NCBI GenBank assembly: GCA_003707065.3
Contig: PPXM03000002.1
Coordinates: 1,178,001 to 1,242,000 of the forward strand
DNA length: 64,000 nt
Direction: 5' to 3'
Origin: Trigonopsis variabilis
Taxonomy: Eukaryota > Ascomycota > Trigonopsidomycetes > Trigonopsidales > Trigonopsidaceae
A model generated the notes under the pieces. The model was not told the origin of the DNA, did no database searches, and worked only from the letters and a program-made list of their open reading frames with translations. Shown one piece after another: positions 3,084-42,219 of the stretch. Each line of letters starts with the position of its first letter. Within the stretch, counting starts at the first letter, position 1. The position numbers were made by a program, and so were the translations under genes.

Positions 3084-5419
3084 ATGTCCTCTTCTCTAGA
3101 TTATTCCCAAATATTGGAGGAAACAGGTCTTTTTTGGTACATTGAATCTATACGTTGCTAATAACAGGCTTCTAGCGATACGTACCCGGGATGTGCAAAA
3201 ATACAAACGGAAGAAGGCAAATTTCCTTTCAAAAAATGTGCTAAAACTTTTAGGCAATCTTGGAAATTAATGTAAGCAATGCTTGCGATACTATTATTCA
3301 TCGCGCGAAACCCCTAACCCTTCGGTTGAAAAGTCAATTTCTTTTTGGCATCACCTGTATCTGTTGGAAACAATACTCTTACACTTTTAGTATGTTTTCC
3401 TCAATTGATGAACTAACTTGACTATTAGAAGATGCGTGGTCGATGTATATAAATAGCAAGCCTAGAATGAAATCGATGATTAAGAAGAAGAAGAAGCGGA
3501 GACCGAAGGTAATCCGAGAAGATTCTGTAATCAATACTCCTGAGCCTGTTTCCTCTCCCGACTATAACGTGGGTTCCATGCCTCTTTTCTCTCCCGACTA
3601 TAATGCGGGTTCCATGCCTGTTTTCTCTCCTGACTATAACGCGGGTTCCGTGTCAGCTTCCCCTTCCGACTATAGCGGAGGTCCTCTAGACATTATATCT
3701 ACTCCCTCTTCTGGCAATAGCCCCAATCCTGCAACTATTTTCCCTCCCGACCATGACTTGGCTTCGGTATTGCCTGCTTTCTCTGACGATATTTCCAATC
3801 TTGTTTCTGTTCCCTCTGCTGATTATATGCCCAATCCTGTACCTGTGCTCCCTCTCAGCCACAATGCAGATCAATCATCTCATGACGCCCCTGAGCTAGC
3901 ACCGATTGTGCACGGACAGCCTTTTAGTCTACCTGTACAATCAAAAAATGAAGGCTCTTTAGGTGATAGTAGCTCAAAGTCGGGACCTGAATCCGCTAAA
4001 GTACAACCATGGACGATTTGCGACGCTCCAGATTACGTACAAACTAACGAAAGCACATCAGCTCATGCTGGTCCGTCAACAGAAGTTGCTAATGAACCAA
4101 ATTATACTCAAGATGAAATAAATTTTTCTTTTGGACCCGATCGCGACACTTATGATTTTCCTTCAATGGATTTTAGTCACGGGACAGGTACAGAAAATAA
4201 TGACTCGACCCATTTTGGGTCTATCTCTGAGGGTATCTCTGTTAAAGAACCTAACCTTCCTACCCCTAAACCTCGTCGTAGTTCTAGACTTCTACGCAAG
4301 AAAGAGAATGATCCTGATAACTACTACCCTACGAAAGTGAACGCTCTCAATAAAGGCTTTCGAACTCGGAGGGAGCGGACAAAGAAGAGAAAGCGACCGT
4401 CGAAGCGATCTGATGGCGAACTTGTGTCGAAACGCGTAAAGTCTTCAGGGTTTACATGCAAAAAAAATCAGGATAAGGCTGATGAAACCTCAGGGACATC
4501 GTCTAAGGTCAGCTCAGTGGAGCATGTCACCAACTATTTCGGGGGTGAAATTATCCCGGTCGGGGAGCCTGGACACTCGAATGAAATACCAGCCGCAGAG
4601 CATCAGGATAGCACATTACAAGAGGGCGCCAGTCATTTTGCTGACGATTATTTCTCGAAAGAAGATTTTAACGACGATCTTTACTCGGTCAAGGGAGATG
4701 CCGGTCCTGTTGGACACGAGGTTATCGCGGCCAAGGAAAATACCAATCATTTTACCGACAATAATATCGCAGATGGAGATGTCGGTCCTGTTGGACACGA
4801 GGTTATCGCGGCTAAGGAAGATACCAATCATTTTACCGACAATTATATCGCAGAAGGAGATGCCGGTCCTTATAACGATGGTTATTCTCCAGAAGGGTAT
4901 GCCGGTACTTTTGAGAACGATTATTACCCAGAGAGAGATTCCAGTTCTGTTGAAGATGAGGTTATTCCGGTGAGGAGATATAGCAATATTACTAGAGAGA
5001 TAGATAGCTTATCTGAAAGACCTTGGAACTTAGAATATCATCCCTTAGACCTGCCTTATGAGACTTCATCAACCGGTCCGCATGATCTCGGCAAGGATCA
5101 CGGTCTATCGGGGAAAGGTGTAACGGAAGCTTTTCCTTGGATTGAACCCAAATCTCCTCCATTCACTGCACTAGAGCATGCTGAACGCCGGCTTCAGTTG
5201 GCTAAACAACAAGATCGGAATAACTTTTATGGCTTCCTTGTTCGGCGTATGGAATCACATACCGCAATAAGTCTAGATGATCTGGTTTGCAAGACTACTC
5301 AACGAAATATAGTGGCAGCAACATTCGACAACATGTTGACATTGCTTTCACACGACCTGATCGGTGCAACTCAGGAGGAGCCATATTACCCGATCATGAT
5401 TACTGCCGCAGCTGCGTAA
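3084..5419 (+). CDS. REC8: Rec8/Rad21-family kleisin, probably meiotic cohesin Rec8
   Basis: Kleisin subunit that closes the Smc1-Smc3 cohesin ring. Four exons (3084-3136, 3168-3216, 3254-3389, 3429-5419) give 742 aa. Residues 1 to about 95 form a divergent N-terminal kleisin domain; recognisable stretches are DYSQILEETGLFWLLAI, KPLTLRLKSQFLFGI and WKQYSYTFKDAW. The last ~70 residues are the winged-helix domain that binds the Smc1 head, ending in TQEEPYYPIMIT. The middle is long and disordered, with two repeat blocks and a basic stretch (RRSSRLLRKKE, TKKRKRPSKR). The domain lacks the usual MFYS start and is far less conserved than mitotic Rad21, and the WKQYSY stretch resembles Rec8, so I favour the meiotic paralogue. 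Introns are 31, 37 (GC-AG) and 39 nt. The first exon is the least certain part. Confidence 0.85.
3555..3690 (+). repeat. SPDYN peptide repeat in REC8
   Basis: About four imperfect 12-residue units, of the form SPDYNAGSMPVF, lie near the N-terminus of the disordered linker. The DNA copies are close to identical in the first three units and decay in the fourth, which points to recent local duplication. Confidence 0.8.
4703..4864 (+). repeat. 81-nt tandem duplication in REC8
   Basis: Two in-frame 27-residue copies start at 4703 and 4784, each beginning GPVGHEVIAAKE and continuing TNHFTDN. They are followed by degenerate partial copies (YNDGYSPEG, FENDYYPER). The two copies differ at only a few bases. 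Confidence 0.85.
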
Positions 5420-17753: not shown

Positions 17754-18719
17754 ATGGCTGAAGGATCCCATCCAGAACTTGATTATGACGACTACGAACC
17801 TTCTGATTCCAGACCTCCTCTAAGACCTCGAGATCGAGACAGAAACTATGGTCGTGATGACCGCAACAGGGACCCTCGATCGAATGATCGGTTTAGAGAC
17901 CGTCGACGGCCGGATTTCCGTGACCAAGGCGATTCAAACCAAGGCTATCGATCTCCTTACAATCGACAACATTCACCAGAGAGAGAGCACACAAGTGCAA
18001 GTGTAACACGAGCAGTCATAATCGGAGAGTTTCCCTGGTGGATCACTGATGACGAGGTCCGAGGATGGGCTGACAAATCTCATGTCGAAGCAGATATTAC
18101 TGATCTGACATTCAATGAACATAAAATCAACGGCAAATCAAAAGGATTTGTCTATGTCGAATTTTCTCAAGAGGCCAACGCCGAGGCTTATCATCAATAT
18201 GTAACCGACCATGTTTTGGCAAAGTATCCCGGATGTCGAGTCGACTATGCTACGCCAGGAATGAACACCTTCAAGTCTCTGCCAAAAGACCCTCCTCCAC
18301 GACAACCTGGCGGTTTCAGAGGCGGATTCAGAGGCCGTGGAGGCGGTAATTCGGGATTCAGAGGTGGTTTCCAACAGCCGTCAGGTGGCCCGTCTTTCCG
18401 AGGCCGCGGCTCTCCTGCTCCTGGACCCGGTCCGAACGTCGCCGCCCCTTCGAATGCCCCGAGCGGTCCGTCTGGTCCGGGTCGCGGAATGATGTTTAAT
18501 CCGATGTTCCCCGGATTCCCTGGTATGCCTCCATTCATGCCAGGCATGCCCGGTATGCCAGGAATGCCGGGAATGCCAGGAATGCCAGGAATGCCGGGTA
18601 TGCCAGGTATGCCAGGAATGCCGGGAATGCCAGGCCCTGGCGCTAATAACAATAACAATCAGGGTCCTGGTGCCGGAGACGGAAACAACCCTCATGGTGC
18701 CAAGAGACAAAGAGAATGA
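17754..18719 (+). CDS. CPSF6/CFIm68-like RRM protein
   Basis: Likely RNA-processing factor related to the large subunit of cleavage factor Im. Intronless, 321 aa. The N-terminal ~80 residues are rich in R, D and S. A single RRM follows (about 83-165), with RNP2 [15 protein letters not shown] and RNP1 SKGFVYVEF. The WWITDDE motif after RNP2 is typical of CPSF6/CPSF7. The rest is low-complexity: [13 protein letters not shown] boxes, a proline/glycine segment, then eleven MPG units. The C-terminus AKRQRE is basic. A generic RRM protein cannot be excluded because the RS tail of animal CPSF6 is absent. Confidence 0.75.
18537..18635 (+). repeat. Eleven 9-nt Met-Pro-Gly repeats
   Basis: Eleven consecutive nonamers of the form ATGCCNGGN encode MPG. 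Variation is confined to the third positions of the Pro and Gly codons, so peptide identity is kept while the DNA has diverged slightly. Confidence 0.95.
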
Positions 18720-41663: not shown

Positions 41664-42219
41664 ATGTCTACAACGCCGAAGACTAATAAAAAGGATCCTG
41701 TCAACTCTTCAAGAGTCATCCAGTATGTATTCAGTGTATTTGCTTAGTTGCCTAACAAAAAGCTATAAGTTTCCTGCTAGAGAAGACAATGAGAATGGGG
41801 CCCGTTCCGTTATCAATACTACCATGCCCATGATGGCCATGTTTCTCAGGTATTAATCTCCTTTTTAACCTACTTACTTTAGAAATAAGTACGATTGATT
41901 CGGAAAGTGCATTAACTCGAGATATTTGGCTTGGGGAAGTCTGGCCTCCGCCCTCCAGCTCTGGCTCGCCGAACGTGGAAACACACAAGGCTCAAATAGC
42001 GCCTACATGCAGGCATTGTATGCTATTGACCTTTCAAATCTGACCCTTTAGTTCCTCGTTGATGGCTGTTTTGGTCTGCTATCTTGACGTTAGTATCTCG
42101 TTCTTTTTTTTCGCAGCTAAACCCAGTTCATCGTCCCTACTCGTGGCTACACAGGAGCTGCCGCTAAGGCCAGTGCTGAAGCAGCAGCTGCCGTTGCAGC
42201 TGCCTCTTCATCGGTATGA
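41664..42219 (+). CDS. WDR83OS: Asterix/PAT10 (WDR83OS family), ER multipass-protein chaperone subunit
   Basis: Small ER membrane protein of the PAT complex, which shields nascent transmembrane helices. Six exons (41664-41722, 41763-41849, 41883-41888, 41922-42017, 42052-42088, 42127-42219) give 125 aa. Family stretches are NTTMPMMAMFLRNKYLAWGS, ASALQLWLAERGNTQGSN and AFSSLMAVLVCYLDFIVPT, with an Ala-rich tail. Three hydrophobic helices are implied. Introns are 40, 33, 33, 34 and 38 nt. Exon 3 is only 6 nt and supplies the N-K of the conserved RNKY motif. None of the exons is long enough to show as an open frame of note, so the gene is easy to miss. Confidence 0.92.

Follow-up and report, generated by a model that had tools for sequence, protein, structure and literature searches.

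The closest described counterparts of the arrangement reported here come from fungi and plants. For the cgs2 microexon of S. pombe, the work of Romfo and colleagues of 2000 reportedly pointed to intron definition: skipping is said to have resisted induction, a neighbouring intron was reportedly retained when packing was too tight, which was explained by steric occlusion, and intron definition is said to have favoured the nearer donor. For the P450 genes of Phanerochaete chrysosporium, a shortest exon of 6 bp (two residues) and introns ranging from 21 to 620 bp are reported (PMC1184071). The study of the 1-nt exon of Arabidopsis APC11 prefers a model of intron definition in which the two introns leave consecutively, and according to its abstract a constitutive 6-nt exon was already known (PMC4674806). 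The switch-like Xlr2 microexon of the filamentous fungus Trichoderma is described as varying in inclusion with glucose and as deciding a DNA-binding domain (PMC11121469). Finally, the introns that flank small microexons in plants are reported to be removed consecutively and often detained, with retention being commoner than skipping (PMC8831610).

The locus that we describe lies in a window of 64,000 nucleotides (the whole stretch of Trigonopsis variabilis DNA that was analysed), where two 33-nt introns bound the hexamer AAATAA in the predicted gene for Asterix, a small chaperone for membrane proteins and subunit of the PAT complex. Like cgs2 as reported, it would combine a fungal microexon with intron definition. 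It resembles the Phanerochaete P450 genes in being a fungal 6-bp exon among small introns, but there the frequent small introns measure 45-55 bp and the genes form a multigene family (PMC1184071), whereas here two 33-nt introns and the exon share 72 nt of a PAT-complex gene found in one place by DNA search. The APC11 exon is likewise ultra-short, is constitutive, and has had consecutive intron definition proposed for it; it is a plant case shown by experiment, whereas ours is a predicted exon in a fungus with very short introns. With Xlr2 our locus has in common that both are fungal microexons, the glucose switch being a feature of Xlr2. The likeness to plant small microexons is a conserved coding function, and we propose here the same consecutive removal and the same prevalence of retention over skipping. 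In plants, however, late removal falls more often to the upstream intron, whereas we expect it of the downstream intron.

Six-nucleotide exons are already known, and what is distinctive here is compactness, a mere 72 nt (41850-41921) accommodating both introns in full as well as the exon. None of the open-licence papers listed deals with the Asterix AAATAA exon, which is weak evidence of its absence from print. The locus offers a clean natural case for exploring the lower limits of intron definition, in a small gene for which the protein family tells us which splice is right.

The Asterix locus and its candidate microexon

The inferred Asterix gene occupies 41664-42219 on the + strand and comprises six exons, whose five introns measure, in order, 40, 33, 33, 34 and 38 nt. 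Its predicted product has 125 residues with the hexamer and 123 without it. The features are as follows.

41664..41722, + strand: exon 1, with the start ATG at 41664 (conceptual splice)
41723..41762, + strand: intron 1, 40 nt (conceptual splice)
41763..41849, + strand: exon 2, with the first hydrophobic segment, ending in ...MFLR
41850..41882, + strand: upstream intron, 33 nt, 5' of AAATAA, GTATTAATCTCCTTTTTAACCTACTTACTTTAG in the window letters (GTATTA...TAG; best-scoring branch A 41876)
41883..41888, + strand: candidate microexon AAATAA, 6 nt, phase 2, completing R and encoding N and most of K
41889..41921, + strand: downstream intron, 33 nt, 3' of AAATAA, GTACGATTGATTCGGAAAGTGCATTAACTCGAG in the window letters (GTACGA...GAG; best-scoring branch A 41915; weak acceptor)
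41922..42017, + strand: exon 4, YLAW... and the second hydrophobic segment
42018..42051, + strand: intron 4, 34 nt (window letters)
42052..42088, + strand: exon 5 (conceptual splice)
42089..42126, + strand: intron 5, 38 nt (window letters)
42127..42219, + strand: exon 6, with the stop TGA at 42217-42219

The preliminary description had placed two 33-nt introns around AAATAA at these coordinates, and this is correct letter for letter. With a GT...TAG intron on one side and a GT...GAG intron on the other, the 6-nt segment falls well within the length limit for microexons that we applied (at most about 27-30 nt). The two introns give no evident sign of duplication, being equal at 13 of 33 positions in an ungapped comparison. 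For intron 1, a 58-nt alternative ending at 41780 was rejected; it has the worse score (6.04 versus -1.6) and loses the stretch HYKFPAR, which partly aligns with YK...PA of human Asterix. The gene lies in one place in its own genome by DNA search; a search with PF03669 gave no match in this genome and none in 14 control genomes, and is uninformative on copy number.

Inclusion of the hexamer reads CTC AG/A AAT AA/A TAT TTG GCT TGG, or L-R-N-K-Y-L-A-W, which contains the family motif RNKYLAW as had been claimed. Joining 41849 directly to 41922 keeps the frame and deletes N-K to give L-R-Y-L-A-W, also as the preliminary description stated. We enumerated every parse with one or two GT/GC-AG introns, each at least 20 nt long, between 41835 and 41927. 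Five of the 16 parses stay in frame through LAWGSLAS, and FLRNKYLAW is produced by only one, that with the two 33-nt introns and AAATAA.

How often such an arrangement should arise by chance depends on what is counted. When the 72 nt were simulated with a first-order model, 38 of 300000 runs produced an in-phase N-K hexamer that followed an AG, preceded a GT and left 28 nt or more to either side; among the genomic GT..AG stretches 66-78 nt long in the 264 kb sample, 6 of 23645 contained one. Hexamers with such flanks are common when any encoded content is accepted (2516 of 100000 simulations and 953 of 23645 genomic stretches), and so the evidential force lies in the encoded residues. The AAATAA arrangement is more than chance.

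Conservation of the encoded residues

On its predicted sequence, the gene is that for Asterix, the PAT complex subunit (PF03669), in agreement with the preliminary description. The Pfam ASTER profile gives 26.9 bits for the included form, above the cut-off of 22.7, and 18.6 bits for the skipped form. As a query on its own, the spliced protein recovered no protein at E 0.01 among 418 candidates, and the search of solved structures with it returned only an unrelated chain (E 0.32). Searches seeded with alignments gave 576 animal matches (E 0.01) and 179 fungal matches (E 0.1), and the best 120 of each were aligned. The RNK form of the window was part of both seeds, and the fungal seed had a second RNK-bearing sequence besides, which biases the fungal set toward RNK-type proteins. 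The animal rows mostly have [KR]xK instead of RNK and are still gap-free at both columns.

Among the best 120 of the 179 fungal relatives, the first column holds N in 119 and S in one, and the second is divided between K (66) and R (54); none of the 120 has a gap at either column. The best 120 of the 576 animal relatives are equally free of gaps at both columns, with K in 119 and E in one at the second; one animal row is gapped at the preceding basic position. Taken together, the best 120 of each list leave no gap in the N-K columns (240 of 240 relatives). The named fungal records are Pezizomycotina, as judged by their names, and both sets of 120 include nameless metagenome records. In these best 120 of each list, the commonest motifs are RN[KR]xxGW in fungi and [KR]xKWCAW in animals, and the window has the corresponding basic motif before [AG]-W in its RNKYLAW. 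A profile of the 120 fungal relatives, built without the window protein, scores 88.1 bits with inclusion and 73.1 with skipping. Human Asterix (PDB chain 7tm3_5) aligns without gaps across FLRNKYLAW/MLKLKWCAW, and the skipped form needs a two-residue gap.

A simple hydropathy scan shows three peaks, the first of them low (0.86), followed by an alanine-rich tail. With the hexamer included, the 7-residue mean falls to -1.21 at the polar RNKYLAW, which separates the first hydrophobic segment from the second. In the skipped form the minimum is raised to -0.33, leaving a near-continuous hydrophobic stretch in which the polar turn is lost. Asterix is described as binding marginally hydrophobic transmembrane segments via an amphiphilic surface (PMC13261788; PMC11186639). 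For fungi, the former paper describes a CCDC47-containing translocon with SND3 and 'probably' with Asterix (PMC13261788).

Two records in the fungal list (P0137 and P0210) carry Asterix (PF03669) together with a SUI1/eIF1 domain (PF01253) in one protein, and some Hortaea records in that list bear the SUI1 label alone. The Asterix-SUI1 records may reflect a true fusion, a shared transcript or merged models of neighbouring genes.

Introns, small exons and splice signals

The genome, 11.35 Mb in 15 contigs, has tiny introns. A small gene model trained on the window and the 200 kb to its left (264 kb in all) called 85 genes at a score of at least 20, with 120 introns. Of these introns, 109 are at most 60 nt long (median 37, range 30-56), 10 do not exceed 33 nt and 11 reach 72 nt or more. 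The preliminary description had called the two introns tiny; with 10 of 120 called introns no longer than 33 nt, this is a short yet ordinary length in the genome. A single 72-nt intron belongs to the long tail of the distribution, yet is possible. The branch site reads CTRAY, and of the 119 introns in the last training round, 106 have their branch A followed by 6-10 nt; in both 33-nt introns 26 nt run from the donor to the best-scoring branch A, with 6 nt thereafter.

Short exons, which the preliminary description had called rare in fungi at this length, are not peculiar to the Asterix gene. Besides the 6-bp exon reported for the Phanerochaete P450 genes (PMC1184071), the neighbouring 200 kb holds predicted exons of 15 and 25 nt. 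These are the two of 66 called internal exons that measure 1-27 nt, one further call of length 0 being an artefact. The 15-nt exon, GATGGCCAACGCGCG, lies on the - strand of the window's own genome (C2), to the left of the window (L021:4891-4905). It has predicted introns of 31 nt and 36 nt on its two sides, and would supply MANAR of a homeodomain recognition helix (QINDWMANARKR). Homeobox_KN scores 50.1 bits with this exon and 33.0 without it, and skipping would keep the frame while deleting the residues with which homeodomains contact DNA. Its predicted gene also holds the length-0 artefact exon and probably fuses two genes, and the homeodomain part alone was used. The 25-nt exon (L010:2581-2605, + strand, also in C2 and left of the window) contributes SIAVFSTK to the early part of a D-lactate dehydrogenase, which over its whole length matches solved enzymes such as 3wx0 (E 4.2e-113), where LAVYSTK is found at that place. 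In a genome with introns this short, ultra-short exons may well arise as a matter of course.

The two 33-nt introns differ in their signals. With length left out, the signal sum of the upstream intron is 9.53, the 15th percentile of short introns, and that of the downstream intron is 4.96, below all 109 short introns sampled. A GAG acceptor like that of the downstream intron occurs in 3 of 120 introns. Intron 5, at 5.10, is also below all 109, and the pair that skipping would join (41850/41921) reaches 5.40 with no length term, slightly more than the downstream intron. The sample consists of introns called by the model itself, and hence is biased to strong ones. With the structure fixed and the length term included, inclusion scores 5.6 nats and skipping 0.7, the extra intron having been paid for.

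Left to itself, the ab initio model did not call the Asterix gene at a score of at least 8. Confined to this locus, it chose the upstream intron and the hexamer, then joined the downstream donor to the acceptor at 42051. When starts were no longer penalised, it kept the upstream intron and the hexamer and read on to the stop after RNKYD, and with a start bonus it split the gene into fragments. Support from the gene model is therefore stronger for the upstream intron than for the downstream one. This carries a warning for annotation, in that the gene is easily missed or mis-joined, and our model made both errors. An annotation pipeline that allows no exon under about 10 nt would delete two residues whose columns are filled in every one of the 240 relatives compared (the best 120 from either list).

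Retention has consequences that can be read from the letters. Retention of the downstream intron introduces an in-frame stop after RNKYD, at 53 residues; if the upstream intron or both introns are retained, the stop falls after 50 residues. RNA folding of the 72 nt and of the surrounding 112 nt was no better than that of shuffles (z of 0.07 and 0.60), and a structural bridge is therefore unsupported. At 41871-41891, TACTTA at the best-scoring upstream branch site complements TAAGTA at the downstream donor over 6 bp, a pairing that could render recognition of both sites mutually exclusive. The upstream intron has a second branch candidate, TTTAAC, 8 nt 5' of the branch A at 41876.

Order of splicing and alternative readings

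We believe that AAATAA is a genuine microexon of the Asterix gene, present in most or all productive mRNA by way of intron definition, and give this a probability of about 0.88, a figure that refers to inclusion whichever intron leaves first. The microexon is probably real, and most likely constitutive. Exon definition is implausible for a 6-nt exon by size, as the preliminary description had recognised. Because the genome has tiny introns, we would expect intron definition to recognise each 33-nt intron, U1 binding the donor while SF1, U2AF and U2 occupy that intron's own branch point and acceptor. The earlier proposal that intron definition acts on both introns at once now appears to be the least likely mechanism, and consecutive removal is favoured, also by two plant studies (PMC4674806; PMC8831610). 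Only 13 nt separate the best-scoring upstream branch A (41876) from the downstream donor (41889), so simultaneous complexes would be implausible; through steric exclusion, the two introns could hardly hold complete early complexes together, and would be removed one after another.

We lean towards the upstream intron being excised first, because its 3' signals are much better. By analogy, plant data would favour downstream-first removal, against the order that we predict (PMC8831610). If the upstream intron were removed first, the downstream intron would then sit behind an ordinary 93-nt exon. The main by-product should be RNA that retains the downstream intron and stops after RNKYD, rather than the in-frame skipped form. 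Retention with a premature stop is thus the likelier of the two by-products.

A reading compatible with our preferred one, but unlikely in our estimation, holds that regulated retention of the downstream intron, with the stop after RNKYD leading to RNA decay, sets the dose of Asterix. Consistent with this, the downstream intron and intron 5 have the weakest signals of the gene, the retained form stops at 53 residues, and introns that flank plant microexons are often detained. However, intron 5 is about as weak (5.10), which means that this weakness may merely reflect relaxed signals, and detention in plants affects the upstream intron more often (PMC8831610). A slightly more doubtful elaboration is a self-timed off-switch, in which the strong upstream intron would leave first and the weak downstream intron, with its GAG acceptor and TTAAC branch site, would be slow, such that controlled retention sets the amount of Asterix, perhaps with membrane-protein load. 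If this were true, the 72-nt block would be a test bed for the minimal spacing of two complete spliceosomal introns.

It is rather improbable that the microexon is alternative, with included and skipped forms both made in useful, regulated amounts to yield two Asterix proteins. A length of 6 nt is an in-frame length, the 3' signals of the downstream intron are weak, and Xlr2 of Trichoderma offers a switch-like fungal precedent (PMC11121469). Against this, the residues that skipping would delete occupy columns without a single gap among the 240 relatives compared (best 120 per list). The weak acceptor at 41921 gives skipping no advantage by itself, because inclusion uses it too. In S. pombe, moreover, the nearer donor is reportedly the one favoured under intron definition. 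The preliminary description had anticipated a second in-frame isoform; the frame is indeed kept, but its usefulness is doubtful given the ungapped N-K and the loss of the polar turn, and a functional skipped isoform is unlikely on the conservation of the encoded residues.

We consider it very improbable that 41850-41921 is a single 72-nt intron, with the hexamer being chance sequence and the Asterix of this species having lost N-K. Introns of at least 72 nt do exist here (11 of 120), the reading frame would be kept, and once length is disregarded the signal sum of 5.40 slightly exceeds the 4.96 of the downstream intron. However, this reading would have to accept the loss of residues that all 240 relatives compared (best 120 per list) show without a gap, a Pfam score under the cut-off (18.6 versus 22.7), the loss of the polar turn and a lower gene-model score (0.7 versus 5.6), and the right hexamer would have to arise by chance, at about 1e-4 to 3e-4.

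In a stwintron, a splice site of the external intron is re-formed once the internal one has been cut out and no exon is left, and in a recursive zero-length exon an AG is followed immediately by a GT. A nested or recursive arrangement of either kind, with no real exon, has a negligible chance of being correct, since despite the two adjoining introns and the closeness of their splice sites, its end product would be without N-K. As candidates, both forms were rejected on the letters: the junctions CAG/AAA and TAA/ATA create no new GT or AG and six coding bases remain, and six bases separate the AG at 41882 from the GT at 41889.

Elsewhere in the window, several coding repeats were observed. An array of the 9-base unit ATGCCAGGA, in 10.9 copies, lies at 18537-18634 inside the predicted gene 17754-18719, whose product looks like an MPG repeat tail behind an apparent RNA-binding domain. 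The predicted gene 3443-5419 contains two more, a 36-base unit in 3.6 copies at 3544-3674 and an 81-base unit in 2.2 copies at 4694-4870.
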